Shown here piece by piece: positions 2,706-25,792 of a DNA stretch of 30,545 nucleotides. Every line of letters begins with the position of its first letter. The stretch's first letter is position 1. The notes beneath the pieces are model-generated. The model did not search any database, was not told the origin of the DNA, and was given only the letters and a program-made list of their open reading frames with translations. The translations under genes were made by a program, and so were the position numbers. This DNA comes from a virus: positions 1-30,545 of the IMG/VR virus record IMGVR_UViG_3300028840_002061; one strand, 5' to 3'.

Positions 2706-2930
2706 ATGTATAGAATAATAATCGACCAAGACATCAATGTAGAGATAGAAGGCGTTATCTTACAGGGTAAGTCAGGGGATGAGTACGATATTCCGTACGA
2801 TAAATTCTCCCTCGTTACCAGACATCTTAACGAAACGGCTATCAAATATAGGATGGATTTCAAGCTGAACGATAGCAACACATTCATGCTTGAATCGAAG
2901 AGACCGACAAGGAAGGCGTTCAGAAAATGA
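2706..2930 (+). CDS. hypothetical protein before glycosyltransferases
   Basis: 74 residues, unrecognised. It starts at ATG 2706, 14 bases after the HNH stop, and its stop overlaps the next ATG (2927). A strand-rich N-terminal part (MYRIIIDQDINVEIEGVIL) is followed by a mixed part ending in a basic tail (KRPTRKAFRK). There is no membrane helix and there are no Cys ligands. Tight coupling to the glycosyltransferase gene suggests co-expression only. Confidence 0.65.
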   Translation: MYRIIIDQDINVEIEGVILQGKSGDEYDIPYDKFSLVTRHLNETAIKYRMDFKLNDSNTFMLESKRPTRKAFRK

Positions 2931-3817
2931 AGAAAACAATATTGATGACTAACAAGCACCTGCGAGTACCGGGTGGCTCGGAGACATGGACGCACACAAT
3001 AGCTAAAGAACTGTCCAAGAGATTCAATGTGGATATTGCTACCGTCTGCCCCGGAAGGTTCTCGGATTCCTTTGACTTTGCCAATATCATTACCAAGATA
3101 AACGACCCTCATAAATATAACTTCGCCTTTATCAACCACCCCCTGAATTTTCCAGAGTTCAAGTTCCTTACCTGTCTATCGTTTATATTCTGCCACGGCA
3201 TAATAGCTCAGGCGGAAACTCCCGTGTATGGTGCTAAATATTATTTTGGTATATCTGAAGAAATAACCCAAAAGTTCGGGTTCAAGTATCTCGTCAGGAA
3301 TCCCGTTGACTGCAAAAAGTTCAGGCCCAAGAGAAAGATTAATAGGATACCGCAGAAAGTATATTTTCTGAGCAAGCATCCCATAGCATTGAAGATAGTG
3401 CAACGGGCGTGTAAACTGGCAAGGGTTAGCTTGATATGGAATCCCCGACTTGAATGGAAAACAGAAGACGTTATGAATGAAGCCGATATAGTAATTTCGT
3501 TAGGCAGGGGTTGTTATGAGGCGATGGCGTGTGGAAGGAATGTCATAGTATTTGATGGTCGGCCTTACTTTCCTTCCTATGGCGATGGACTTGTTACCCC
3601 TGAATCAATAAAGAATTTCAGGTTGTATAATTGCTCAGGCCGATATAGCAAAAAACTGTTCACAGCGGAAATGCTTGCTGACGAGATAAAGAAATATAAT
3701 CCCAAGCTCGGAGCATGGGGCAGAAAGTACGCGCTCAAGGAACACGATATAAAGAATTTCATACCAACAATACAGGAGAAGATACATGACAGTAGATTTG
3801 ATAATGCTTTGTCATAA
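2927..3817 (+). CDS. GT-B fold glycosyltransferase (GT4-like)
   Basis: 296 residues, somewhat short for family 4. The N-terminal Rossmann domain has the glycine-rich acceptor-side loop PGGSETWTHTIAKELSKRF at residues 15-33. The C-terminal nucleotide-sugar domain has ADIVISLGRGCYEAMACGRNVIVFD (about 186-210), where E198 is the conserved Glu of the retaining GT4 signature. It transfers a sugar from an activated nucleotide donor to an unknown acceptor. The region between the domains is compact, so the fold may be minimal. It overlaps the following glycosyltransferase gene by 32 bases, indicating co-translation. Likely targets are a virion protein, modified DNA or a host surface glycan; the sequence does not choose. 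Confidence 0.8.
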   Translation: MKKTILMTNKHLRVPGGSETWTHTIAKELSKRFNVDIATVCPGRFSDSFDFANIITKINDPHKYNFAFINHPLNFPEFKFLTCLSFIFCHGIIAQAETPVYGAKYYFGISEEITQKFGFKYLVRNPVDCKKFRPKRKINRIPQKVYFLSKHPIALKIVQRACKLARVSLIWNPRLEWKTEDVMNEADIVISLGRGCYEAMACGRNVIVFDGRPYFPSYGDGLVTPESIKNFRLYNCSGRYSKKLFTAEMLADEIKKYNPKLGAWGRKYALKEHDIKNFIPTIQEKIHDSRFDNALS

Positions 3818-5207
3818 TCAGTTATCATATACCAAGCGAGCCGTAGAGAGCATCATCGAAAATACATATCAACCCGTCAATAGATTCTGGATAGTGAATA
3901 ACGCGAGTACAGATGATACGAAATTATATCTTAGCGGTCTCGCGGAAAATTATTCTAACGTTAAGGTTGTTAATAACAGGAAAAACAAGGGATTCGTAGT
4001 GGCTAATAACGAGATAATGAAACGCTCCAAAGCTGATGTAGTCGTATTGCTTAATAACGATATAGAGGTAGAACCATATTGGCTGCATGAAATGATAGTC
4101 CCTTTCAAGAAGCGTAAGAAGGTGGGCATCACAGGCCCGATGACCAACATATCAGGCGAGGTCATGCAGATGTGCGAGAAGGACGAGACAGAATCGGGGA
4201 TATATTGCAGGGCGAGCATAGCCGTACCGTTCTTCTGCTCTGCCATCAGTAAGAAATTGATAGACGATATAGGATACCTTGATACTATATTCGGCATGGG
4301 ATATGGCGATGATGGGGATTATTGCATACGTACAGTCAAAGCAGGTTGGGACATCATAGTATGCAAGGGCGCGTATGTGTATCACTATAAGATGAAAACC
4401 TTCAAATCCATAATGTCAGACGATAATATAAACAAGACCAAGAGAGATGCGATAGAACTACTGAAGGAAAGATACCCTGATAGGTATAAGAAGGATATAT
4501 CGATAGCCGGTATTACGATTGTAAGGAATGAACAGCTTATAATCAGAGATACCCTTGACCATTTTGGACAGTTCTGCAACGGCGGTATATATGTATATGA
4601 CGATGCCTCGGAGGACAACACGAGAGAGATATGCGATAACCACCCTGCCGTGAGACAGACCATAGGCAGAAAAGAATGGACTCCTGACAGATATAAGAGA
4701 CAGGGTTCACTCAGACAGGCAGTATGGGACTTGGCTAAACAGGACGCTGATTGGATACTCGTGTTTGACGCAGACGAGCGCATAGATTTTGATTTTCAGA
4801 ACCTTGTAGGTTACGATGCTGTCTGTATGAAGCTGTTTGATTTTTACATAACCCAAGATGACATATACAAACAATGGAACGAGCGCGAGTGGTGCGGGCC
4901 TGAGTACAGAGAGATACCCGTGCTGTTCAGGAACAACCCTGACGTATCATTCAAGAACAAGGTACGGATACCCCTGTTCACGGGGCGTGTGCTGTTCTCG
5001 GGCTATATAAAACATTATTCCAAAGCCCTGTCTGTCGAAAGGTGGGAACGGGACTGTGATTTCTATTCGGGCTACGATTTCCCTGACAGATTCAAGAAGA
5101 AATGGAGCAAGAGAAAAGGCAAAGCTATCCATACCAAGTCAGATTTCGGCAACGACCTGATGAAATGGGAAGATAAAGAAATAAGAGGATTTAAACTTGA
5201 AGATTAA
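3786..5207 (+). CDS. bifunctional protein with two GT-A (GT2-like) glycosyltransferase domains
   Basis: 473 residues holding two GT-A folds in tandem. Domain 1 (1-230): LIMLCHNQLSYTKRAVESI, VNNASTDDT (38-45), NKGFVVANNE and the acidic metal site LNNDIEV (89-95), then GMGYGDDGDYC (170-180) as the likely base/acceptor region. Domain 2 (237-473): ISIAGITIVRNEQ, VYDDASEDNT (270-279) and a DxD site at D328-A-D330 in LVFDADERID. GT2 enzymes are inverting transferases or glycan-chain builders. Two active sites in one chain suggest successive additions, one linkage each. ATG 3786 follows AGGAG and lies inside the end of the GT-B gene. Confidence 0.88.
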   Translation: MTVDLIMLCHNQLSYTKRAVESIIENTYQPVNRFWIVNNASTDDTKLYLSGLAENYSNVKVVNNRKNKGFVVANNEIMKRSKADVVVLLNNDIEVEPYWLHEMIVPFKKRKKVGITGPMTNISGEVMQMCEKDETESGIYCRASIAVPFFCSAISKKLIDDIGYLDTIFGMGYGDDGDYCIRTVKAGWDIIVCKGAYVYHYKMKTFKSIMSDDNINKTKRDAIELLKERYPDRYKKDISIAGITIVRNEQLIIRDTLDHFGQFCNGGIYVYDDASEDNTREICDNHPAVRQTIGRKEWTPDRYKRQGSLRQAVWDLAKQDADWILVFDADERIDFDFQNLVGYDAVCMKLFDFYITQDDIYKQWNEREWCGPEYREIPVLFRNNPDVSFKNKVRIPLFTGRVLFSGYIKHYSKALSVERWERDCDFYSGYDFPDRFKKKWSKRKGKAIHTKSDFGNDLMKWEDKEIRGFKLED

Positions 5208-5529
5208 ATATAAAAAAGGTGAGTGGAATAAATTTAAAAGCTATTGGAAATTACATAATCGCTGGCAACATTATAGGAAATTTGGTTATGATGCTTTCGG
5301 GGAGCAGATGCCATATGATTTAGAAACAAAATGTCATGAAACCGGAATAACAATAAAGACATCACATGAACAAGCAATAGAATTTTGTTTAAAAAGATGG
5401 GAAAAAATAAAAAAAGATTTAATGAAAAGGGGATATAAAAAATTTACTAAATGCTACTATGCTTATGGACACGATGAACACCCATTTAATGAATATATAA
5501 TACAATGGATAGCCCTTGCAAAAAAATAA
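5197..5529 (+). CDS. hypothetical basic protein at end of the glycosyltransferase operon
   Basis: 110 residues, unrecognised. The best start is a TTG at 5197, seven bases after AAGAGGA, overlapping the end of the double glycosyltransferase gene by 11 bases. It is rich in Lys, Tyr and Trp, and one Cys is followed by His (KCHETG, residues 45-50). Codon use is more AT-rich than in the gene before, which hints at a different origin. It ends seven bases from the stop of the convergent holin-like gene; no clear terminator hairpin separates the two operons. Confidence 0.6.
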   Translation: MKIKYKKGEWNKFKSYWKLHNRWQHYRKFGYDAFGEQMPYDLETKCHETGITIKTSHEQAIEFCLKRWEKIKKDLMKRGYKKFTKCYYAYGHDEHPFNEYIIQWIALAKK

Positions 5530-5536
5530 AAAGGAA

Positions 5537-6091
5537 TTAACGGTACATATTCCTCGGCTGTCTACCTATCCTGTCGCTGAACTTGCTGATAGTCCTGCTC
5601 CCAAACCAGAATGAGACCACCGCGCTGAACAATACCTGTGTCTCGCTGTCAAATATAACATTAGCTACATTAATAAGGGATTGCTGAGATTTTAAGACAT
5701 CCCATATTAAGATTATTTTAAAGAGAATAAACATTAGGAAAAAGGTATAGGTTATGAATGGTCGTACCGATGCGCTGAACTTATCAATAAGCGTTGTCGC
5801 ACCCCTGAGTCCCTTGTCATGTTCCAGCAGTTGCTTGCTCTCGTCTATATCGCCCTGAGCGTTGAGGTTCTTTAGTTTCGCTTCCATCTCTGCGCGTAGC
5901 TTGTTAATCTCCGCGTTAGATTGCGCTTCAGTTTTCTTAGCATCAGCATCAGCCTGAGCATTAATGAGTTCCTTCTCGGCTGTAAGCTCCACAATTCTAT
6001 TCTTCCGCTCCGAGTTCTTCTTAATGACATCTATGACCCCCGTGCCTATAGATGCTCCGAGACCTACGATAGACCCTAAAAGCGCACTCAT
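5537..6091 (-). CDS. 3TM-type holin-like membrane protein
   Basis: 184 residues. The start is the ATG at 6091, behind AGGAGGTAATT; longer in-frame starts run into the endolysin gene. A glycine-rich hydrophobic N-terminus (LLGSIVGLGASIGTGVIDVI) precedes a long charged coiled-coil segment (about 25-105). A strong membrane helix (FITYTFFLMFILFKIILIW) and a second hydrophobic stretch ending WFGSRTISKF follow. The layout and the WFG-x-R-T ending fit the 3TM holin superfamily. It would open the inner membrane at lysis so that the peptidase encoded just upstream reaches the wall. It is the last gene of the minus-strand late operon. Confidence 0.75.
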   Translation of the reverse strand: MSALLGSIVGLGASIGTGVIDVIKKNSERKNRIVELTAEKELINAQADADAKKTEAQSNAEINKLRAEMEAKLKNLNAQGDIDESKQLLEHDKGLRGATTLIDKFSASVRPFITYTFFLMFILFKIILIWDVLKSQQSLINVANVIFDSETQVLFSAVVSFWFGSRTISKFSDRIGRQPRNMYR

Positions 6092-8798: not shown

Positions 8799-10724
8799 TT
8801 ATTTTTTGTTAGAATCTACAAGTAACCCCAATCTTTTTGCCTCGCTTGGACGCGCCACCTCCATTAATCTTGGTATATCGTCTTTAAGTGTTCCAAATGT
8901 TCTAACAGCATCATCTAACGCTTGAGATAGTCCTATTCTTTTTGATGCGTATAATATTCTTCCAATTAACCAATCCCTTGGGTCGCTTGAAAAAAACTCT
9001 TTAACGACTGGCTTGTTCTTAAATCTATTTACTATTTCCGATAATGATAATGGCAAACCGCCCCTTGCCATTCTTTTTTTCCCGGCGGCTATCATTTTTC
9101 TTAATTCATTTTCATATCCATAACCACGATTTTTCATAAAGACATCTATCTCATCGCGCCTCATGCCTTTAAAAATTTTTACCCTACCCCTATGAGCCTG
9201 CACACCGCCCAATCCATTTTTTAATCCCGTACCCGTTGCCCCTGCTTTAATATCTATATTCGGAGTATAATGTTCAAGGAAAGCTAAGATGTCTCCAGCA
9301 TCATCGCCAAGGTCTGCCGGTAATTCGGGGATAGCCCAATTTTTGAAATTTTTTACAAAATCAAACCCGTCTTTCTTTAATGCGTGATGCACATAATTGA
9401 TATTATCTTTCAATTCCTTGATAGGCACGGCGTTCATCTGTTCTATTTTTATTATTTTTTTCCCAGCTTCAACTGTTTTCTGTGCCAACTCGCCTATCTG
9501 TGTTTTAAATTTCTGTTTATCTAAAACATTAGACAAATCACCAAGTCGTTTCTCTATTTTTCTTATAACATCAGGCGTTGCTTCTTGAACTTCAGCAAGA
9601 AGAACATTAAGCTGGTTCATGCGCTCCATGGCCTGTTCTCTAAGCTCTCTACCAACACGGCCTGGAACTTTATTATATCCCATAGCATCAGCATAATCAT
9701 TGGCAATTTTTCTTGTATCGTCTAGTATATCCCCGAATTGCTCAATAAGTTTCGTAGTCATTCTAGATGTACGAGATATTGTTCTGTCCATCCACTTGTC
9801 TATGCTTGTTATTCCGGTATTGATAGTCAGATTTCTCACTATGGGAATATCTTGAAGATTCTTTGTTCTACCCCACATCCTTTCATTTATTTCTTTTGCC
9901 GCCCTGTATAACTGTTTTCTTTTTAGGCGAGCGGCTATTTTTTTAACTGGCTTTAATTCACCAATAAATTTCAAAGGTTTAGGTAAGTCTATTCTGAAAT
10001 AATCAGCCATACCTTTTACCACTTGCTCAGATAGTTCTTTGGGGAACTTTGTAAATGATTGTATAATATCTTCTGTCGGAGCAAACTTAGCCATATTTTT
10101 AAACTGCTTAGAATTTTTTATAAATTCTAAAGCATCAGTATATCTTTTAATTTCTTTAGGATTAAGTTTTTCTGCTTTCCTTAAATATTTTGCTATGTCA
10201 TCAATCTTAGTCGCGCCCTTAAATGCGCCCTTTGGCATACGACTAATAATTTTATATGCCTTACCAAACTTATTCAGCTTATTTATTTTAAGCATCCATA
10301 ATGGGTCTAATGCAATACCGGCTGCAAGACCCAAAGCCACAGCAGGTAAGTCGGAAACACCGGCATCTATAAGTAAATCTGTATAATCAGGAAACGCTTT
10401 TTTACTAGATTTTTTAAATGTTTCAGGAAATATAGTTGCTACCAATTTAGCAGGCATCCACTCAAAAGCCCCAAGAGTCATGTGGGTTAATTCACCTAGG
10501 TCCGATAAAAATGGCAGTGCTCCCCCACGGGGATATTGGGGTAACGGTTGGCCTCCCGTAGGCTGTGTGCCGGTAACTAAAGATAGTGGTTTTGGCTCTG
10601 CCAATGCCCCTGCTTTAGGAATTTCATCATCAGACAATAACTTTCTTTTTGTTGTAGCCGGTTCTTCTAATGAAATTGTCTCAGTAGGTTCTATAGGAGA
10701 TAATAATTTTCTTTTAGTCGGCAA
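8799..10724 (-). CDS. large internal virion/ejection-type protein, N-terminal part
   Basis: 641 residues. The start is a TTG at 10724, nine bases after GGAGG and inside the end of the previous gene. The N-terminus carries TKRKLLS twice (residues 3-9 and 25-31) and a Pro/Gly-rich linker. A short hydrophobic stretch (VALGLAAGIALDPLWML, about 129-145) may be membrane-active. The rest is long amphipathic helices (KKIAARLKRKQLYRAAKEI). No lysozyme or protease motif is recognised. Phage proteins of this build and place are injected to form a conduit (T7 gp15/16, P22 gp16/20 class); the identity is by context. It stops at AACAAAAAATAA, with the next gene in the -1 frame. Confidence 0.65.
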   Translation of the reverse strand: MPTKRKLLSPIEPTETISLEEPATTKRKLLSDDEIPKAGALAEPKPLSLVTGTQPTGGQPLPQYPRGGALPFLSDLGELTHMTLGAFEWMPAKLVATIFPETFKKSSKKAFPDYTDLLIDAGVSDLPAVALGLAAGIALDPLWMLKINKLNKFGKAYKIISRMPKGAFKGATKIDDIAKYLRKAEKLNPKEIKRYTDALEFIKNSKQFKNMAKFAPTEDIIQSFTKFPKELSEQVVKGMADYFRIDLPKPLKFIGELKPVKKIAARLKRKQLYRAAKEINERMWGRTKNLQDIPIVRNLTINTGITSIDKWMDRTISRTSRMTTKLIEQFGDILDDTRKIANDYADAMGYNKVPGRVGRELREQAMERMNQLNVLLAEVQEATPDVIRKIEKRLGDLSNVLDKQKFKTQIGELAQKTVEAGKKIIKIEQMNAVPIKELKDNINYVHHALKKDGFDFVKNFKNWAIPELPADLGDDAGDILAFLEHYTPNIDIKAGATGTGLKNGLGGVQAHRGRVKIFKGMRRDEIDVFMKNRGYGYENELRKMIAAGKKRMARGGLPLSLSEIVNRFKNKPVVKEFFSSDPRDWLIGRILYASKRIGLSQALDDAVRTFGTLKDDIPRLMEVARPSEAKRLGLLVDSNKK

Positions 10725-12515: not shown

Positions 12516-15155
12516 TTAGCCCTCCTTATCTGTTCCTTTTATCTTATACCATAGAGTATGACTTCTATGGAAAAAATAGTCATCTGCGTTGTTCTGTGTG
12601 ATTGTAAGCTGTATTGACTTGCCCCATTGAGCTGATGGTGTATATCTGAAATTGAGATAATTACCTGTGAGTGTTTTTGTATAATTCTCTACCGTTCTGC
12701 CCTCTACTTGAACCGCATAGTTTAATGTTCCGTTCCCATAATTCTCCGTCTGTAATTCCCTGAACGCCTGCTCGTAGTCCTCCTGTAGTGTTATCTTGCC
12801 TGTCTTTATCTCGCAGTCTATTGCGCTTGTCCCATCGGCTCTCTGTGTGATGTCCTCATACTGCCATACGAATCCCGCGTTGTCCGCTATGTATGGGATT
12901 TCATAATCATCTGCATCTTCCACGGTCTGTCCGCTGATGCCGTTGATACCAGTATCGTAGTAAAAGCAGTTGAGGTGCAAGTCGTAGACAATGCAGGTAT
13001 CACAATATGTGTTTGAACCTGTGGGGATAAATAGGTAATACTTATCCTGGTAGATGAAAGCAAAGCTGAGTTCCTCCTGTTCTTTATTGATAGTCCTTAT
13101 GATGGACTGTATTTTAAGGTCTGTTATTGTCTTTGGCTCGTAGCCTGCCATCATTTCAATGCCTTTTTCTGACAACCAGAATAATTTACGCTCGTACTCC
13201 TGTATTGTCCTGTGAGAAATAGTGCCTGCTCCATCACCACTCTTTATCCTCGCAATATTATAAGAAGGGTACACACCAGTAAGGCGGTGAACACTATCAC
13301 GCTTAAATATAAATAGCTGTCCGTAGTATTCTCGTAGCCCTTTAATCTCATCGCCGTCATTCTCGTACACTCGTATAAAACGCAGAGTACCAGAGCTATT
13401 ATCGTACCAATCATCATCGCTATAGAGTGCGGAGAAATATAAAAATGAAGGATTTGTTCCATAACCTGCTCCAAATATATGTCCCTGATATTCAGCGAAA
13501 TATTTCATCTGGGGGACATAAAGACTTTGAGATGGTATAATATCAGTACCATCATTATTCCCATCTGGGTCGTATCCTATGCTACCATCTGCTGTACTAT
13601 CTTCTGCAAATGTTCCGTCTGCGTCTATCTCATCTACATAATAATAAACAGAGCCACCTGCCTTAGTTCTATACCTTCGTATTTTAGCAATAGTTAATGC
13701 CTGCAACCAAGAAGGAGATTCTACTTCAGAGATTGCTATTTTTTGATTGGTAACTGTTATACTATTACTTTCGGGGCCGCCACTTCCTTTTAATGTTCCG
13801 GTTTCCCAAGTTAGTTTATATTTATATGTTCCTGTAAGACCTGTTGCCGAACCCACGGTAACTTTTGGAGCATTGGGCGTTCCAATATCTCTTACGGTAT
13901 ATTCATCAGAAGAAGTGGCGATTGTTAATATTTCAATATCAGTTAAATATCCAACAACACTTGTTACGCTTGACTCAGCTAAATTCGATAAAGCATATTT
14001 TCTTATTACTGCGCCTGCCAATACAACATATAAATCTGTTCCATATATAGTGCCTTTAAGGGGCGCACGATTGCCACCAGTTCCTTGAATTGCAACATAA
14101 TTTAAATTTGTTGCAAGACGCTTATGTATTCTGTCATTATTTGTATCACAAACATATACATTTGTAGTATCAGATTCTATGCCAACAGGTCCATCAAATT
14201 GGTCATTTCCCGTTCCCGTACTTCCTACTACGACGCTAAGATTTAAATTAGACGCAAGGCGTTTATGTATTCTGTCATTAGCTGTATCAGCTACATATAT
14301 AAAATCAGTACCGCCCACGGTAGAAAAACAAATATCTTCAGGAGAATCAAACTGGTCATTTCCTGTTCCCTGACTACCTATTTTAGACACATAACTTAAA
14401 TCAGAACAAAGATGTTTTTTTATTCTATGATTATTTGTATCGGCTATCCATATATGAGTACCATCAGTATCTATTCCTTTTGGTGTATCAAATTGATTAT
14501 CACCAGTTCCCTGTGTTCCAATAGACGCAACATAAGATAAATCAGCCGCAAGCCTTTTAACTATTCTATGATTTAGACTGTCGGCTATATATAAATAATC
14601 TCCCGACCCACAAATACCTTCAGGATTATTAAATTCATTAATCCCCGACCCCATACCTCTTATTTCCTGAACCAAAGAGAAATTACTCTGTAGCCTATCA
14701 CCTATACCCTCTTTATCAGAGGCGGTATTTGCAAGATAGGCATGAACCGTACTCTCATAGCTTGTTTCTTTTCCATAGCTCATTACATTATTAACAGCAT
14801 TGCCCATAATCATTTTATCGCTAAATTGTAAAACATTCATTATAGCATCTGTTATTTCACTTTTTATACTTGTCCAAGCATCGTCAACATAATGGTATAT
14901 ATCATTAACAAACTGAGACAACAATCTTTTAGTTCCATCAGCTTGCCGTAGCTGTGTAATCATGTTCCCGTTGCCTACGGCTATCGCACTTGCGTTCTGC
15001 TTGCTTGCACCATACCTGCTCATAAGAGTCCCATCGTCCTCTATCCTCATGTTCTTCAGAGTATAGAGTTCGTTATCACGCAGACGGGTCTCCCCTAAGT
15101 CTCTCTGCATACCGCCTCGGAAATCGAGAAATTTCTTAAACTTGTTCTTTCTCAT
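12516..15155 (-). CDS. tail nozzle/hub protein (P22 gp10-like) with NHL propeller
   Basis: 879 residues from ATG 15155, four bases after the adaptor stop; an earlier in-frame start at 15365 lies inside the adaptor gene and is rejected. Residues 1-165 (FLDFRGGMQRD, LKNMRIEDDGTLMSRYG) match the N-terminal part of podoviral stabilisation/nozzle proteins. Residues 170-385 hold four to five NHL-type blades: QFxxPxGI, then Y/I-x-x-D-T/S-x-N-x-R-I-x-K. After 400 comes the gp10-like body (ISHRTIQEYERKLFWLSEKG, CIVYDLHLNCFYY). It plugs the packaged head below the adaptor. NHL propellers often bind proteins or carbohydrate, so this one might meet the receptor. Confidence 0.8.
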   Translation of the reverse strand: MRKNKFKKFLDFRGGMQRDLGETRLRDNELYTLKNMRIEDDGTLMSRYGASKQNASAIAVGNGNMITQLRQADGTKRLLSQFVNDIYHYVDDAWTSIKSEITDAIMNVLQFSDKMIMGNAVNNVMSYGKETSYESTVHAYLANTASDKEGIGDRLQSNFSLVQEIRGMGSGINEFNNPEGICGSGDYLYIADSLNHRIVKRLAADLSYVASIGTQGTGDNQFDTPKGIDTDGTHIWIADTNNHRIKKHLCSDLSYVSKIGSQGTGNDQFDSPEDICFSTVGGTDFIYVADTANDRIHKRLASNLNLSVVVGSTGTGNDQFDGPVGIESDTTNVYVCDTNNDRIHKRLATNLNYVAIQGTGGNRAPLKGTIYGTDLYVVLAGAVIRKYALSNLAESSVTSVVGYLTDIEILTIATSSDEYTVRDIGTPNAPKVTVGSATGLTGTYKYKLTWETGTLKGSGGPESNSITVTNQKIAISEVESPSWLQALTIAKIRRYRTKAGGSVYYYVDEIDADGTFAEDSTADGSIGYDPDGNNDGTDIIPSQSLYVPQMKYFAEYQGHIFGAGYGTNPSFLYFSALYSDDDWYDNSSGTLRFIRVYENDGDEIKGLREYYGQLFIFKRDSVHRLTGVYPSYNIARIKSGDGAGTISHRTIQEYERKLFWLSEKGIEMMAGYEPKTITDLKIQSIIRTINKEQEELSFAFIYQDKYYLFIPTGSNTYCDTCIVYDLHLNCFYYDTGINGISGQTVEDADDYEIPYIADNAGFVWQYEDITQRADGTSAIDCEIKTGKITLQEDYEQAFRELQTENYGNGTLNYAVQVEGRTVENYTKTLTGNYLNFRYTPSAQWGKSIQLTITQNNADDYFFHRSHTLWYKIKGTDKEG

Positions 15156-15159
15156 AATC

Positions 15160-16083
15160 CTAACCGATATTAGGGTCTTCAGCAACCCTTCTAAGAAAAT
15201 CGCGCTCATCTCTCCTATGAGATTGCAGAACGAATCTATCATCATCCTCAGCAGAAGAATCGAAATACTGCTTAAGCAACCCAAGAGAAGTCTGAGCCTC
15301 ACTAAAAAATACCTTATTTCTGTCATCTTCCTTTTCCAAAAATATCCTTGCACAGGTTCTGTCAATCAGATATTTATCCATTCTCGCATCGTCATACACA
15401 GGATAGTTGTCGCTTGCGTTTGTCAGCGCGGCTAAGTGTCTCCAATACTTGACATTAATCTGATAATCGTCATCAGGAGTAGGCATCACGAGCATCTGAG
15501 CAAGCTGAGTCGTGGTCTCGTTATCATAATCAGCCGCGTTCTTCCATATCACAACGTATCTCGGTGCGCCTGGATATATCCTGTAGAACATCTTATGCAG
15601 GTAATCCATCTGCATGATGGACCTGAGATTGACCTGAAGGGGCGTATCCCCCTGCGTAACGGAGAGAATCTTATTGAAATCCGCAGGCAGAGCATATACC
15701 GCTTTATATAAGTAGTATTTCTTACCGCTCAGGGATTCCTGCGTCCAGTTACTCGCTATGGTCAACTGCGTTGCACTCGGACGCGCAGTTACCCTGTGGA
15801 CATCGGCTTCCCCATCAATCTTGATGAACCAACCTATCTGGTCGGTGGTAAAGGCCGTGCCTGAACCCGTAACAGTAGCAGAGCCATTAATAACCGATAC
15901 AGTTCCCGTGTTGTAATACTTTGGAATGTAGAACGTAGTATCGTTAATAAGCTCAGGAAACCTGAGAATGTACTCAAGTTCCTTGTAATAAAAGTTTAGA
16001 TAACGGAGGATTGTGGTTTCATAACCTGAGTCGGTTTCACCAGTAATCCGCGCAACTTCGTCAATAATAGCGGCGGTGTCCAT
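15160..16083 (-). CDS. head-tail adaptor protein (P22 gp4 / T7 gp11-like)
   Basis: 307 residues; ATG 16083 follows AAGGAGT. The helical N-terminus (MDTAAIIDEVARITGE ... LRYLNFYYKELEYILRFPEL) and the later YALPADFNKILSV, VKYWRHLA and YLIDRTCARIFLE segments are typical of podoviral adaptors that dock under the portal. Residues about 58-115 contain a small beta domain (TVSVINGSATVTGSGTAFT, then GWFIKIDGEADVHRV, SATQLTIASNW), an insertion often seen in this family. Its start lies inside the 3' end of a glycosyltransferase gene (88-base overlap). The downstream nozzle gene follows by four bases. Confidence 0.8.
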   Translation of the reverse strand: MDTAAIIDEVARITGETDSGYETTILRYLNFYYKELEYILRFPELINDTTFYIPKYYNTGTVSVINGSATVTGSGTAFTTDQIGWFIKIDGEADVHRVTARPSATQLTIASNWTQESLSGKKYYLYKAVYALPADFNKILSVTQGDTPLQVNLRSIMQMDYLHKMFYRIYPGAPRYVVIWKNAADYDNETTTQLAQMLVMPTPDDDYQINVKYWRHLAALTNASDNYPVYDDARMDKYLIDRTCARIFLEKEDDRNKVFFSEAQTSLGLLKQYFDSSAEDDDRFVLQSHRRDERDFLRRVAEDPNIG

Positions 16084-17165
16084 ATCTTACTCCTTTGGGG
16101 CTTTTCTTTATATTTTATATTGTTCGCCCGCTCAAATACGTTTCGCCATTCATCTGTATGGTCTTTAATATGATATGTCTGCTTTACATGGCTATAAGCA
16201 TTTAATCCCATCTGCTTCCTGAGTTGTTTATCCTTGATAAGTTTAGTCAACTTATCGTACCATTCCTTCTCGTTATTAGCGTACATCCCCGTCTTGCCAT
16301 CATGGAACTTGCCGTGATACGGAGACCATTTGTTCCCAGTGCAGACAGTAGGTATCTTCAATGCGCTATATTCGTAATATTTGATTGCGCTCTTGCTGTA
16401 GTTAAACTTTATATCAGCCAGCGGTGCTATGCCTATGTCAAATCCTTGGTCGGCTATCAGCTTAGGTGCTTCTGGAAATTCGTTTGTCCCCGGCACAAAT
16501 TTACGCCTCGGCAGTTCCTTGAATATCTTACTGTCGTATCCTACATGAACAAAATCCACGTTATCGAACTTGTTCATTATCTTCTTCAGCACGGGTATTA
16601 TCATCTTAAGGTCTGTCTCATGTGTACTGCTTCCCTGCCAACCTATCTTTATACGCCCGTCTTTGCCTATCCTGTTCTCATAAGCCCAATCGTCCATATC
16701 AATATAATTAGGTATTACTGTTATCTTGCCATTGTATTTCTCATACTGCTTTTTAAGATATTCCGTGGATACGGTTATCATATCAGCGTTCCTTAGCATC
16801 GCCTCAATTATATAATATTTGTCAGGTGTAATATGTTTCTTAGCCGAGCTTTTAGGGTCTATGTTAAAGTAATCATCGTCCACATCCAATATTATCTTCT
16901 TCTTGAAATGAGTACGGCTCGCATACATCTGTGCGAGGGCTTCCTTACCGTCCACCTTCATAGTATATATCACATCGTACTTCATCCATATATCCGTCCA
17001 CAACTTTACAGCGTCCATCTTCTCAGGATACATACATCCTTCGCCCATGAGCTTGCCATGCGTTTTTATACCGAGATGTCGCATGGGTGCTATGCAGCGA
17101 TAGTATCCGCAACCACCATAGGTCTCGCGCTCTTTCCAATCTGTGTATATAGCAAGTATTTTCAT
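15996..17165 (-). CDS. GT4-like glycosyltransferase inside the structural operon
   Basis: 389 residues from ATG 17165 (site GAAGGTAGTGG); the ATG at 17249 lies inside the previous gene. It is a GT-B enzyme. The N-terminal domain has GGCGYYRCIAPMRHLG and LDVDDDYFNID (93-103). The C-terminal donor domain has VIPNYIDMDDW, IKIGWQGSSTHETDL (about 172-186) and FDIGIAPLADIKFNYSKSAIKYYEYSALKIP, with the conserved Glu in the last part. It transfers a sugar from an activated donor, target unknown. Expression with head and adaptor genes suggests glycosylation of a virion protein late in infection. The last ~29 codons overlap the adaptor gene and may not be conserved. Confidence 0.82.
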   Translation of the reverse strand: MKILAIYTDWKERETYGGCGYYRCIAPMRHLGIKTHGKLMGEGCMYPEKMDAVKLWTDIWMKYDVIYTMKVDGKEALAQMYASRTHFKKKIILDVDDDYFNIDPKSSAKKHITPDKYYIIEAMLRNADMITVSTEYLKKQYEKYNGKITVIPNYIDMDDWAYENRIGKDGRIKIGWQGSSTHETDLKMIIPVLKKIMNKFDNVDFVHVGYDSKIFKELPRRKFVPGTNEFPEAPKLIADQGFDIGIAPLADIKFNYSKSAIKYYEYSALKIPTVCTGNKWSPYHGKFHDGKTGMYANNEKEWYDKLTKLIKDKQLRKQMGLNAYSHVKQTYHIKDHTDEWRNVFERANNIKYKEKPQRSKIWTPPLLLTKLRGLLVKPTQVMKPQSSVI

Positions 17166-17401
17166 ACCACTACCTTCTTTGGATTCTCCTGTGTATAATG
17201 ATAAGCCTTCTGGTCCTCGGCGGCATCCATCTTTTTGGGATTCCACCACCTCGGCTTATTGTCTATCTTGAACATGAACGGCGTATAAACCCTCTGCATA
17301 AGTTTCTTGCATTGGGGGCATATCGCTATATGTTGGTCGTTCATAAGCTGTATAAGCGAAAGTTTATATCCACATTGACAACTATATTCGTATGTCGGCA
17401 T
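17162..17401 (-). CDS. FmdB-like zinc-ribbon protein
   Basis: 79 residues from ATG 17401, which overlaps the previous stop (TAATG). The N-terminus MPTYEYSCQCGY with a second knuckle CPQC at 28-31 is the FmdB-type small zinc ribbon. The first knuckle is C8-x-C10 instead of CxxC. A tail rich in Trp, Lys and Tyr (PRWWNPKKMD) follows. In bacteria this family is called a putative regulator. In phages short versions are frequent among head genes, with no proven role. Its ATGA overlap with the following glycosyltransferase indicates coupled translation. Confidence 0.75.
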   Translation of the reverse strand: MPTYEYSCQCGYKLSLIQLMNDQHIAICPQCKKLMQRVYTPFMFKIDNKPRWWNPKKMDAAEDQKAYHYTQENPKKVVV

Positions 17402-19419
17402 TAGAATCCTACCCCCAATAAACACATTTCGCCGTAAGGCGTATTGACAAAAGATATGAACAAATTATTTCCTCCATCAGTACAATTGAGGGCTATTAAT
17501 GGTCCTCCTGTAGCGTCTATATCCTGAAACGTCATGCCCGTTATGTTGGCTGCTCCGTTATTCGTTACTGTAAATGCAGCCCTTGTACCACCGCTATCGG
17601 ACTTCATTGTACCGCCGTTACCTGTAAAATCCGTGGCAGTAAGCGTGTTGGTATTATCAAGCTGTAACTCCCCGAGCGTCATGGTAAGTTGAGTTACCGA
17701 ACCACCGCCTGATAATATTGCTTTACCAGATGCCTTATTTATTATTACATTATACAAATAATTATTGCCCTTGGTCCAATTTTGGGTACCAGTTCCAATA
17801 AATTCCCATATTCCATTCGGCGTTGTTGCAATACCGGAATTATATAAATCGCCTTTTATATATATTTTCTTGCTAGCGGTTATATCTATATTCCCACTGG
17901 TGCCAGTCCAGTTATTCACAACAACATCATCAAGAACATATAAAAATATTCCTGTTCCCATCGCCTCCTCGACATTATGCACCTCGTTACCATCCGTGTC
18001 GAAATCCGTACCGCCCGTGGCGTTCGTGAACTTTATCGTCTCGCTGTCGTGATTCCATGTATTGTCCTCAAGCGAGAACAATGTTAAGGGACGGAATTCC
18101 GCGCTTCCCGGCTCAAGGATTGCCCCTCCATTACTGCGTTTCTGGAAATATATCATTGAAAAAAGGCCCGTCCTGAAATATATGGTCCTCCCTGATGCCC
18201 CGTCTATTTTAAAATAAACAGCATTCGTGAGGTTGAAACCATTCCAATCAATCTGAAAATCATTGACTTCTACGCTTCCGGTGCCGTTCAAATCTGAGCT
18301 ACCAGTCATTGTCACGTCACCGCCGCCATCGTCCCAGAAATTTATTATTCCGGTTCCTACATGTGAGAAGCTCTTCTGCGTGTAACTCCCGCCGGAATAA
18401 TATACTTGTATTATGGCGTTCATCGCCGTCGCCGGATTTATGTCCAGCGAGTCGTTCGCTTGTGCAAGCATTCGAGTATTCCCCGCGCTCCTATTGTACG
18501 CCCCACCGTTCAGTTTTATCTTCTCGCAATACACATTCCCTATCGTTGTGGTCGTAAACCCGGCAGGCGCGAACTCGGGAGCGACAAATCTACTGCCGTT
18601 ATGCGGGTTAGTGATGTTCCCGGAACCGAGCGCACGCCATATTCCTGAATTCGTGAGCCCGTTCACGTTAATCCCCATGTGACGCTTCCATTCGACCGTG
18701 TTACCGTTGTCGTCCAACGTTCCGCCGTTCAGGTATATGTCGTTGCTCTTGAAATTGTTCTGCAAGCTGTTCGTGCCGCCTGTGAAATCCACGCTCGCAT
18801 TCTCCGTGAACCAGTTCGCGCCTGTGCCGAGGTCAATATCAGCAATCTCAAAAGTGCAACCATAATTCGCAAACGTACCGCCTGCCTGACTATATACAGA
18901 ACCGTCTCCGTCAAGCACTATCGTGGTATCTGTATTCGCCACGGTGTTGGCGTTCGAATTGAACGCATCGTTTCCCTGATAAAGCACATATATCTTTGCC
19001 GTGCCGCCCCCTGTCTCGTTGATAATCCCGGTGCCGGTCGTCAGCTTGTTGCAGTATATGTCCTGACCATACGAGAGCGTCTGACCTGCCGCAACCGTCA
19101 TCAACTCGGCGATGGCGTTCGCCTTCGTCGGGTTCGCTCCGGTCCCGGACCCCGTGTGATCTAATATGCCCGTTGAGTTGATCGTCGCGCCTGCGTCGAA
19201 GTCGAAGTTCAGGACGACAGTCAGCTTGTTGCCGGCGTCGGTGTAGGTCCCGCCGGAGTCAACGCGGATCGTCCTGCTCGACTCGTTTCCCGTCAGGGCG
19301 ATCGCGTCGCCGTTCAGTATCGTAACATCATCGCCAGCACCAGGGGCTACACCTCCAGCCCAACTCGCACCAACGTTCCAGTTACCACCGCCAGCACCAT
19401 TGGAACTTATATCAGACAT
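17401..19419 (-). CDS. large Gly/Asn/Thr-rich beta-solenoid surface protein
   Basis: 672 residues. ATG 19419 follows AGAGGTTAAT. It opens with GNWNVGASWAGGVAPGAGDDVTI, a start often seen in beta-helical adhesins and phage surface proteins. It then repeats short strands separated by G/N/T turns (IINETGGGTAKIYVL, LYNSGIATTPNGIWEFIGTGTQNW). No hydrolase residues or signal peptide are recognised. Placed between the capsid-decoration gene and neck genes, it could be a head fibre, a decoration or an adhesin; a tailspike is less likely as no catalytic or head-binding domain is seen. The first third (18600-19400) is visibly richer in G+C than the surrounding genes, suggesting recent acquisition or domain shuffling. 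Confidence 0.7.
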   Translation of the reverse strand: MSDISSNGAGGGNWNVGASWAGGVAPGAGDDVTILNGDAIALTGNESSRTIRVDSGGTYTDAGNKLTVVLNFDFDAGATINSTGILDHTGSGTGANPTKANAIAELMTVAAGQTLSYGQDIYCNKLTTGTGIINETGGGTAKIYVLYQGNDAFNSNANTVANTDTTIVLDGDGSVYSQAGGTFANYGCTFEIADIDLGTGANWFTENASVDFTGGTNSLQNNFKSNDIYLNGGTLDDNGNTVEWKRHMGINVNGLTNSGIWRALGSGNITNPHNGSRFVAPEFAPAGFTTTTIGNVYCEKIKLNGGAYNRSAGNTRMLAQANDSLDINPATAMNAIIQVYYSGGSYTQKSFSHVGTGIINFWDDGGGDVTMTGSSDLNGTGSVEVNDFQIDWNGFNLTNAVYFKIDGASGRTIYFRTGLFSMIYFQKRSNGGAILEPGSAEFRPLTLFSLEDNTWNHDSETIKFTNATGGTDFDTDGNEVHNVEEAMGTGIFLYVLDDVVVNNWTGTSGNIDITASKKIYIKGDLYNSGIATTPNGIWEFIGTGTQNWTKGNNYLYNVIINKASGKAILSGGGSVTQLTMTLGELQLDNTNTLTATDFTGNGGTMKSDSGGTRAAFTVTNNGAANITGMTFQDIDATGGPLIALNCTDGGNNLFISFVNTPYGEMCLLGVGF

Positions 19420-24394: not shown

Positions 24395-24423
24395 GTGAAA
24401 TTTTTCACTGTGAAATTTTTCAC
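24395..24423 (-). promoter_or_regulatory. two tandem 14-bp palindromes, probable operator/activator site
   Basis: GTGAAATTTTTCAC occurs at 24395-24408 and again at 24410-24423, a 15-bp period. Each is a dyad GTGAAA-TT-TTTCAC. The second overlaps the stop codon of the SDR gene. Together they could also fold into one long imperfect hairpin, but no U-run follows, so a terminator is unlikely. The pair ends about seven bases before the -35 of the head promoter. Confidence 0.7.
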
Positions 24424-25403
24424 AACCATCTCTTATTATTTATAAACCATTTCACGGTTTTTTCAAGTGATTTTTCAAAGTCAATAGGTATCTTCCAGCC
24501 AAGCTCTTTTAATAGAGAGCCGTCCAACGCGTAACGGAGGTCGTGGCCCGGCCTCTGAGAATGAAAATCTGTCATCTCGTACTTGAGCGGTTTCTCCAAT
24601 ATCTCTGCTATCGTGAGTGCCATATCAAGGTTTGAGACCTCTTTCTCGCCCACTATGTTGTATTTATGAGCCGTTGTAGCCCTTGGGAGTATGAAATCTA
24701 CGGCACTTGCCACGTTCCTACAATGGATGTAGAACCTTGACCCTGATACCGTCTTGGCCTTGTTAGCATGGATGGTTACACACTGGTTATCCCTTATCTT
24801 CTTAATGCACATGGGTATGAATTTCTCAGGATGCTGTCTCTCGCCAAACAGATTCATACAATGCGTGATAAATACGGGTAGCTTGTATGTATTGGCATAC
24901 GCCAGGCATAGCTCCTCGCCCCCTGCCTTGCTCGCTGCATAGGGATTCGTACTCCTGTATCTATCCCATTCCTTGTACTTCTTCTTCTGGGGAGCAGGCC
25001 CAAATACCTCATCTGTGCTGAAATAGAGCATATTCTTTAGATTATCGGCTTTTTTTCTTGCGAACTCAAGCATATGCGCCGTGCCAAGTACATTGGTCTT
25101 TACGAAGGATAAGGGGTCGATAATGGAGTTATCTACATGGGTCTCTGCCGCTGTGTGCAGTATATAGTCCAACTTACCCGTTTCCTTAATTATACCCTCG
25201 CTTATCGGCTCTCTGATGTTGTACGTTATTATCTTTATACGTTTGTCATCAAAACAGTTTATATCCCTTAGCCTGTCAAATCCGTTGGATGCGTATGTAA
25301 GCGCGTCCAATACTATAATCTCATAATCACTATTCCTCAGATAATGCTCCACCAAATGGTGCCCAAGGAATCCACAACCGCCTGTAATTAAAATCTTTTT
25401 CAT
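24420..25403 (-). CDS. extended SDR, dTDP-glucose 4,6-dehydratase-like
   Basis: 327 residues. The Rossmann NAD site TGGCGFLGHH is at residues 7-16. LDALTYAS, AAETHVDNS and STDEVFG (with the Asp-Glu pair used for dehydration) follow, then the catalytic NPYAASK (Tyr-x3-Lys). These are the marks of RmlB-like sugar-nucleotide 4,6-dehydratases, which turn an NDP-hexose into the 4-keto-6-deoxy sugar, a donor precursor. RmlB is the nearest type, but the exact nucleotide and sugar cannot be read from sequence. The gene starts right at the stop of the metallopeptidase gene. With the glycosyltransferases it suggests a phage glycan pathway. Confidence 0.88.
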   Translation of the reverse strand: MKKILITGGCGFLGHHLVEHYLRNSDYEIIVLDALTYASNGFDRLRDINCFDDKRIKIITYNIREPISEGIIKETGKLDYILHTAAETHVDNSIIDPLSFVKTNVLGTAHMLEFARKKADNLKNMLYFSTDEVFGPAPQKKKYKEWDRYRSTNPYAASKAGGEELCLAYANTYKLPVFITHCMNLFGERQHPEKFIPMCIKKIRDNQCVTIHANKAKTVSGSRFYIHCRNVASAVDFILPRATTAHKYNIVGEKEVSNLDMALTIAEILEKPLKYEMTDFHSQRPGHDLRYALDGSLLKELGWKIPIDFEKSLEKTVKWFINNKRWL

Positions 25404-25706
25404 TTATTTACCCTCTATTTGTGGAATTATTTGATATAACATTTCAGTTATACGACTAACAAGACCCTCATTGTTTCTTAAATCATCTTCATGTAATAAA
25501 AAAAATATCCAATGAATAATTTCATGTAAAAATGTTATATTAACCATTTCATCAGTTCTATTATTTGATTTATCTTTTGGTACTATTATTATTTTACCTT
25601 TTCTGTAAGCAGCAAATCCATAAGCATCATCATTATCAGATATTTTTAAATCATATTCAATTGGTATCCTGCGCCCCATTAATTTAATTTCTTTAGGTAT
25701 TTTCAT
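25404..25706 (-). CDS. mini zinc metallopeptidase-like phage protein
   Basis: 100 residues; ATG 25706 follows AAGGAGGTTTT. The zinc motif HEIIH sits at 61-65 in ITFLHEIIHWIFFLL, with a third ligand candidate E80 in NNEGLVSRITEMLYQ. N-terminal strands (IKLMGRRIPIEYDL; GKIIIVPKDKS) match the small 'minizincin'-type or SprT/ImmA-related phage proteins. Possible roles are cleavage of a host regulator or a structural zinc fold without activity. It is inserted between a truncated SDR copy and the full SDR gene, an unusual neighbourhood. Confidence 0.75.
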   Translation of the reverse strand: MKIPKEIKLMGRRIPIEYDLKISDNDDAYGFAAYRKGKIIIVPKDKSNNRTDEMVNITFLHEIIHWIFFLLHEDDLRNNEGLVSRITEMLYQIIPQIEGK

Positions 25707-25792
25707 AAAACCTCCTTATCGCTATTCTTGATATAATGCTCCACCAAGTGATGTCCAAGAAATCCGCAACCACCTGTAATTAGAATTTTCAT
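25703..25792 (-). pseudogene. 5' fragment of a second SDR gene
   Basis: 29 codons: MKILITGGCGFLGHHLVEHY then IKNSDKEVL and stop. The first 25 align with residues 1-26 of the intact SDR downstream (24420-25403), but the DNA differs at many third positions, so it is a diverged allele and not a fresh copy. Homology ends exactly where the AAGGAGGTTTT ribosome site of the metallopeptidase begins. It still sits in a chain of ATGA overlaps, so a short peptide may be made and may couple translation. Confidence 0.8.

Follow-up and report, generated by a model that had tools for sequence, protein, structure and literature searches.

What does a phage glycosylate with three transferase domains encoded side by side? 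The question is raised by the IMG/VR virus record IMGVR_UViG_3300028840_002061, whose whole length of 30,545 bases is the stretch analysed here (the window). The virus is, judged from terminase, portal and head protein matches, a tailed phage. Two of its genes, P0001 and P0002, encode three glycosyltransferase (GT) domains, one of GT-B type (P0001) and two of GT-A type (P0002-N and P0002-C). We assign a probability of about one half to the reading that these domains form a three-step protein-glycosylation module whose acceptor is most likely a virion protein. P0002-C, the constant GT-A, would attach the initial sugar to a side chain of a polypeptide, and P0001 and a variable second GT-A would then extend it. 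An enzyme of the type of P0003, a third glycosyltransferase, may add a further residue where it occurs in the same phage, and a nucleotide-sugar short-chain dehydrogenase/reductase (SDR) of the P0004 type may, on the same condition, supply a modified sugar nucleotide. The acceptor would be a tail tube, head or decoration protein, and the product a glycosylated particle. We infer that the acceptor is a polypeptide and the virion the target, and likewise the order of the steps and what P0003 and P0004 do; a virion protein is favoured because the best matches of the C-domain modify polypeptides and because relatives of the module are set among virion genes.

Domains of P0001 and P0002

The initial annotation had described a compact GT-B gene overlapping a gene for two GT-A domains, each with its own acidic site (NDIEV and FDADE), and this description was borne out. 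The two frames lie as it had them and overlap by 32 nt (Table 1), P0001 is modelled as a GT-B enzyme, and both GT-A domains score above their Pfam cut-offs with both motifs intact. By eye, a purine-rich stretch resembling a ribosome-binding site precedes each start. Chance open reading frames (ORFs) are excluded in both cases because homologues exist in other phages.

P0002-C matched PF13704 at 65.6 bits (cut-off 27.5) over residues 247-337. It contains the motifs FDADER (327-332, with DADE at 328-331) and GYIKHYSKA and keeps further catalytic-type residues. Invariant positions in a 25-row alignment include Asp-328, Ala-329, Asp-330, Glu-331, His-410, Trp-420, Trp-440, Ser-452 and Trp-461; the relatives are 42-54% identical across the alignment rows and the fused relative in locus L162 is 34% identical. 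P0002-N matched PF00535 at 99.8 bits (cut-off 23.3) over residues 5-125 and carries LLNNDIEV (88-95, with NND at 90-92), GYGDDGDYCIR and YVYHY. Its catalytic-type residues Asp-175-Asp-176 (Asp replacing the usual Glu) and His-200 are present; the acidic metal motif, the ED-type catalytic pair and the distal His presumably have the roles of their GT2 counterparts. The two domains showed no significant similarity to each other in pairwise BLAST.

Structure prediction, suggested in the initial annotation as a check on both domains, supported one of them. The P0002-C model has a predicted local distance difference test (pLDDT) score mostly >90 and a GT-A fold that matched solved structures at Z 11-15. 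In P0002-N, residues 66-190 and most of 192-208 fell below pLDDT 50, and the assignment of this domain rests on sequence because residues 66-208 are without a confident model. The modelling failed because single-domain relatives of the N-domain align onto the C-domain; the alignment used for the P0002 prediction had five N-only rows removed and locus L016 added.

P0001 is clearly predicted to adopt a GT-B fold over its whole chain, with an AlphaFold2 model at pLDDT 89.9 and a predicted template modelling (pTM) score of 0.89. The model matched HepE with a Foldseek E of 2.6e-8 and a VIA Z of 20.4 over 259 residues (root-mean-square deviation 3.2), the fold being that of HepE and other GT4 GT-B enzymes. 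P0001 differs from HepE in length (296 vs 364 residues), in an Ile at the first position of the EX7E motif and in scoring below the Pfam cut-offs (12.3 bits against 28.5 for GT4/group 1). Fused relatives of P0001 in L132, L163 and L164 reached 36.1-42.6 bits in Pfam, with the best stretches inside the P0001-like part. Relatives in other phages are 24-40% identical to P0001, and residues invariant in a 17-row alignment include Gly-17, His-90, Gly-91, Glu-112, Gly-193, Arg-194, Asn-235, Ser-237 and Arg-239; Glu-198 is present and nearly invariant.

Relatives of the module in other phages

Single-protein scans of viral contigs with P0002 and P0001, and of genome contigs with P0002, gave no match. 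Relatives were found through a motif scan, which gave L016 among the matches listed, followed by alignment-based searches. C-domain relatives were thereby identified in 43 IMG/VR records and in one contig of a Desulfobacterales metagenome-assembled genome (L135); grouped at 90% identity, these 44 loci make 27 clusters, all but one of them viral (26). A P0001 relative was present in 35 of the 43 viral records (23 of the 26 clusters). The control gave 0 of 50 phage records; it was drawn by a DADE motif pattern alone, irrespective of GT2 identity, and consisted of the first 50 of 119 other motif loci listed. Among the eight records negative for P0001, five (G005, G034, G038, G044 and G045) have the C-domain gene at a contig end and two (G040 and G041) each share a cluster with a P0001-positive record; no P0001 relative was found in G042 (281 kb). 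The P0001 match of G037 (3e-14) lies at a distance from its C-domain gene. All four families (P0001, C-domain, P0003 and P0004) occur together in one relative only, record G039 (L170).

The two genes are also linked in position, and their divergence is correlated. Judged by longest-ORF starts, the GT-B and C-domain frames overlap in 18 of the 26 viral clusters; the wider spacings include those of L150 (one gene between), L162 (1.4 kb) and L170 (6 kb). Distances among P0001 relatives correlated with those among C-domains (Mantel r 0.75 over 22 pairs, with 0 of 5000 permutations as high), a value that includes shared phage ancestry, and r was 0.73 over 19 pairs when L154, L155 and L157 were removed.

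The second GT-A is the part whose place changes. Among the loci read, it is N-terminal to the C-domain in one chain in the window and L162 only. The stepwise assembly of a disaccharide or chain by two fused GT-A domains, suggested in the initial annotation, stays hypothetical. It is fused ahead of the GT-B in L132, while L163 and L164 have a GT-A-like N-terminal part (below the Pfam cut-offs), a GT-B and a second GT-B in a single chain. In L150 it is a separate gene directly upstream (5161-5820; PF13712 at 34.4 bits, cut-off 27). Motifs mark a GT-A-like stretch after the GT-B in L137, L142, L144 and L161, with Pfam below cut-off or silent, and weakly suggest a GT-A domain at that place. The F7 gene of L151 had no significant Pfam match. 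Such varied fusions of the same domains are expected of enzymes in one pathway. The set of three glycosyltransferase domains proposed initially, its motifs kept, was thus upheld by co-occurrence, overlapping frames, alternative fusions and correlated divergence.

Some relatives carry further domains. In L134 (2-1078), a C-domain relative and a sulfotransferase domain (PF13469, PF00685) share one chain, a hint that the glycan there may be sulfated. The gene at 9632-10564 of L152, which adjoins the GT-B, has a Stealth CR2-like match at 31.9 bits (cut-off 39.4) and possibly encodes a sugar-phosphate transferase. The L135 contig is short (5137 bases), and its DNA may be of host or phage; a common chromosomal origin in its phylum was not supported, as the C-domain profile matched 1 of 297 genomes at E 1e-20, namely the query row itself.

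Possible acceptors of the module

The best matches of the C-domain in the PDB were enzymes that modify polypeptides. A 5-row C-domain profile retrieved, as its first chains, GmaR (7.1e-9), SunS (4.6e-7 and 5.8e-7) and ThuS (1.1e-6), and the best folds for the P0002-C model were ThuS (VIA Z 15.2) and SunS (VIA Z 14.8; Foldseek 1.4e-8). SunS (SPbeta prophage-derived) and ThuS, 'glycosin S-glycosyltransferases' (PDB 7msn, 7msp and 7msk), share the GT-A core and DAD motif with P0002-C at ~20% identity, whereas P0002-C has its own conserved C-terminal tail. We take the substrates of SunS and ThuS to be peptides, SunS-type enzymes transferring sugar to a peptide Cys. The match to GmaR, the best by sequence profile, is to the N-terminal domain of this Listeria flagellin N-acetylglucosamine transferase (PDB 22ao). 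GmaR glycosylates flagellin, a filament-forming protein (PMC9638930); unlike P0002-C, it is a cellular enzyme fused to TPR and antirepressor domains.

Chosen neighbours within ~6 kb of the module were scanned in 19 of the 26 viral clusters, leaving out L154, L155, L157, L162, L168, L173 and L176. Head, connector or tail PHROG matches were found in 14 of the 19 (L132, L133, L134, L137, L140, L142, L144, L150, L153, L158, L161, L163, L164 and L170). The pair follows neck and tail-terminator genes in L142 and a tail-terminator gene in L140, and a tape measure gene lies downstream of the module in L137, L144 and L161. In the siphovirus-like loci, a putative tail tube gene, named by its position and without a PHROG match, adjoins the module. 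Terminase or portal genes stand beside it in L132, L133, L134, L163, L164 and L170; in L153 the neighbour is a capsid gene. The stretch in L170 reads SDR, C-domain, terminase, portal, an unnamed ORF, capsid, GT-B and third GT. No virion-gene match was found among the chosen neighbours in L141, L143, L152 and L159. L151 was left uncounted, its neighbours being endolysin or peptidase families with weak tail matches; a placement of the L151-like group beside baseplate genes was not borne out by the scan.

Several observations weigh against a virion-glycosylating module. The window pair itself lies on the strand opposite the virion genes, outside the virion operon and downstream of genes for a single-stranded DNA-binding protein (SSB) and an HNH nuclease, and 14 in 19 may be no more than the usual share for phage GT genes. 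In fold matching, the lead over a polysaccharide enzyme, the fucosyltransferase WrtF, is modest (Z 15.2 vs 13.8), and function does not follow from a common fold. By eye, the putative tail-tube proteins beside five modules have no obvious Ser/Thr tail, and no acceptor was found. P0001 has Ile at position 190, the site of the first Glu in the EX7E motif of GT4 enzymes (Glu at both ends), and so departs from that motif. The nearest relatives of the domains differ, being L164/L163 for P0001 and L140/L141 for P0002-C. Few of the 43 records also have a relative of P0003 (5) or of P0004 (6, one of them at only 6e-4).

The most serious competitor, unlikely in our judgement, is that the module modifies the host envelope, acting on a surface polysaccharide or lipid-linked sugar and, like phage seroconversion genes, blocking superinfection or changing the receptor. 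It would suit the place of the window pair beside early-type genes (SSB and HNH) and the resemblance of P0002-N to GT2 enzymes of polysaccharide synthesis (the PgaC and TuaG models) and to phrog_841 ('GtrB-like O-antigen conversion', E 1.5e-6). It fits poorly with the virion-gene setting in 14 of the 19 clusters and with the three transferases themselves, in which no membrane-type segment was detected (highest 19-residue hydropathy 1.49). Moreover, a GtrA-type flippase (PF04138) was not found in 44 records including the window, many of them fragments, when 7 of 14 control genomes were positive.

The position of the window pair, beside early-type genes and away from the virion operon, would also suit an enzyme set that adds sugar to a small molecule or host protein, so as to take over the cell or counter its defences, and leaves no glycan on the virion, and GmaR does act on a cellular protein. 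We consider this quite improbable, since the virion-gene setting of the relatives extends to L170, where all four families are present.

A thymidylate-synthase-like gene, of the family that includes the dCMP hydroxymethylases, was not found in the 43 relative records (six of 56-281 kb; many fragments) against 9 of 14 in the control, and T4 AGT, one of many GT-B matches of the P0001 model, scored below HepE (Z 17.4-17.5 vs 20.4). A search for TET/JBP gave 0 of 43 with its control silent too and carries no weight either way. Glycosylation of hypermodified (hydroxymethylated) phage DNA to evade restriction is the least probable target, even though DNA-glycosylating phage GTs exist (Pyle 2024, cited in PMC12619734), P0002-N weakly matches TAGT, a TET-associated GT family (15.3 bits, cut-off 27.5), and the window pair adjoins the SSB and HNH nuclease genes.

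Modification of a virion protein remains the reading that we prefer. A bolder version of it, which we put forward with some reserve, is that a constant GT-B and a SunS/GmaR-like GT, together with an exchangeable GT-A, make up a mobile three-enzyme machine that has been re-fused in different orders and stands with head genes in some phages and tail genes in others; different phages would then put a related glycan on their particles.

Other genes of the window and comparison with known phages

Table 1. Features of the window, in order of position.
Feature	Position	Strand	Evidence
74-aa ORF, stop overlaps P0001 start	2706..2930	+	ORF list
P0001, compact GT-B glycosyltransferase, 296 aa	2927..3817	+	AlphaFold2 model, fold matches, 17-row alignment
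P0002, 473 aa, two GT-A-type domains	3786..5207	+	Pfam, motifs
P0002 N-domain, residues 1-236, GT-A/GT2, NND metal-type motif	3786..4493	+	PF00535, motifs
P0002 C-domain, residues 237-473, GT-A DADE type, conserved KW..RKGKAIH..SDFG tail	4494..5207	+	PF13704, model, alignment
110-aa ORF overlapping P0002 end	5197..5529	+	Sole match phrog_18063, E 0.0068
Departure point of record G001	8799-8820	.	Record comparison
P0003, third glycosyltransferase, GT-B type; same genome as pair not certain	15996..17249	-	phrog_7162
P0004, RmlB-like nucleotide-sugar SDR; same genome as pair not certain	24420..25403	-	TIGR01181, phrog_540

Two more sugar genes, P0003 and P0004, lie within the virion operon of the window. 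P0003 matched phrog_7162 at E 1.3e-55; by eye, its likelier start is the ATG at 17165 (389 aa), and relatives are found in L143, L158, L007, L153, L134 and L170. P0004 scored 282.9 bits against the dTDP-glucose 4,6-dehydratase model TIGR01181, under the equivalog cut-off of 365.1, matched phrog_540 at 2.5e-86 and is 54% identical to the SDR of records G039/G040 (L170/L171).

The initial annotation had credited one phage with four transfer domains and the SDR. The genes are real; that they belong to one genome is unsure, because a second record, G001, parts from the window at 8810, between the two pairs. G001 is ~99.99% identical to window 8810-30545 and extends 2,948 bases past its right end, and P0002 was not found in it. 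Its terminal 169 bases (L006 19832-20000) are without a match in the window. At the junction the frame of G001 is open, while the 641-aa ORF of the window (8799-10724) ends four codons on and is followed by an ORF in a different frame. Past 8810, the two continuations resemble each other weakly in collinear order (27% over 33 residues, E 0.10). In four-base composition the left 8.8 kb does not stand out, with a distance of 0.124 when blocks of the right part give 0.153-0.285. The junction marks either a true difference between two related phages, as between strains, or a wrong join in one of the records. The case for P0003 and P0004 sharing a genome with P0001 and P0002 is weakened accordingly and remains unsure. 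The P0001/P0002 pair stands independently of this question, and the odds for the target readings are unchanged because they rest on relatives.

A number of further features were noted around these genes. The 74-aa ORF ahead of P0001 matched nothing in Pfam (E 1) or PHROG (0.01). Toward the left end, the ORF at 34-498 contains a run of short SIYDS/DSIY-type repeats, has long ORFs on the opposite strand as well and gave no Pfam match at 0.01. The successive ORFs at 311-790 and 787-1122 have in common a C-terminal stretch of ~48 aa (KLSWDEILNKLENLLRELNTYGLPPTYREEAKAIL...), a tandem partial duplication. P0003 is adjoined by a zinc-ribbon gene (17162-17425; PF09723 at 36.5 bits), and small zinc-ribbon genes (family F15) were seen by eye near the module in L154 (8942-9205), L155 (8922-9185), L157 (8940-9203) and L160 (9617-9877). 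At P0004, a 73-bp direct repeat, 83.6% identical (25326-25398 and 25718-25789), copies the 5' end of the SDR gene beyond a gene at 25404-25706; this SprT-like gene (18.5 bits, cut-off 25.6) is flanked by the repeat as if inserted. Window 12516-15365 encodes a 949-aa protein with NHL repeats (49.1 bits); judged by L007, its place is that of a phage stabilisation protein. The capsid genes are followed downstream by 17401-19419, which encodes a 672-aa Thr/Gly/Asn-rich protein with a weak match to the G8 domain at 18.9 bits (cut-off 22.9); it is possibly a decoration protein or a fibre and could be an acceptor.

The podovirus ctQWt234 (MW202801, L007) is related to the right part of the window through its capsid protein (2e-25); it also has a homologue of P0003 (2e-34), and its sugar genes lie between the capsid and stabilisation genes. 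The comparison covered 37,013 of its 40,140 bases and gave no match to P0001 and, at 1e-6, none to P0002. The sugar cassette of ctQWt234 (L007 16513-21176) comprises an Fe-S oxidoreductase, a GT2, a PhyH, a methyltransferase, a NodB-like gene and a GT-B. When 50,697 GenBank phage records were searched by tblastn, P0001 had no match at E 10, P0002-C none at E 1 and two distant C-domain relatives none at 1e-3. Full-length P0002 gave none against GenBank phages with the limit at 1e-5 and 12 records at E 10, three of them listed at <1e-5. Eleven of these 12 matches fall in or mostly in the N-domain, and the four inspected are long GT2 proteins on gut contigs without the P0002 architecture.

Phage glycosyltransferases that decorate virions are already known. 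In mycobacteriophages (Che8 and others; Freeman 2023), phage GTs have been linked to capsid and tail-tube glycans, according to PMC11256854 and PMC12619734. The GT genes of the mycobacteriophage Maravista lie near the 3' end of its genome. Freeman 2023 and Pyle 2024 are cited here as related in PMC11256854, PMC12619734 and PMC13313380. No account of the module was found in the open-licence literature searched; its function here is a prediction.

Glycosyltransferases are common in phages, but few have been assigned a target. Here a conserved trio, re-fused in different ways and with a key domain similar to enzymes that modify proteins, leads to a testable prediction for many uncultured phages at once, namely a virion protein that carries sugar. 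If the prediction is true, glycosylated virions would occur more widely than in the actinobacteriophages described in the papers cited.

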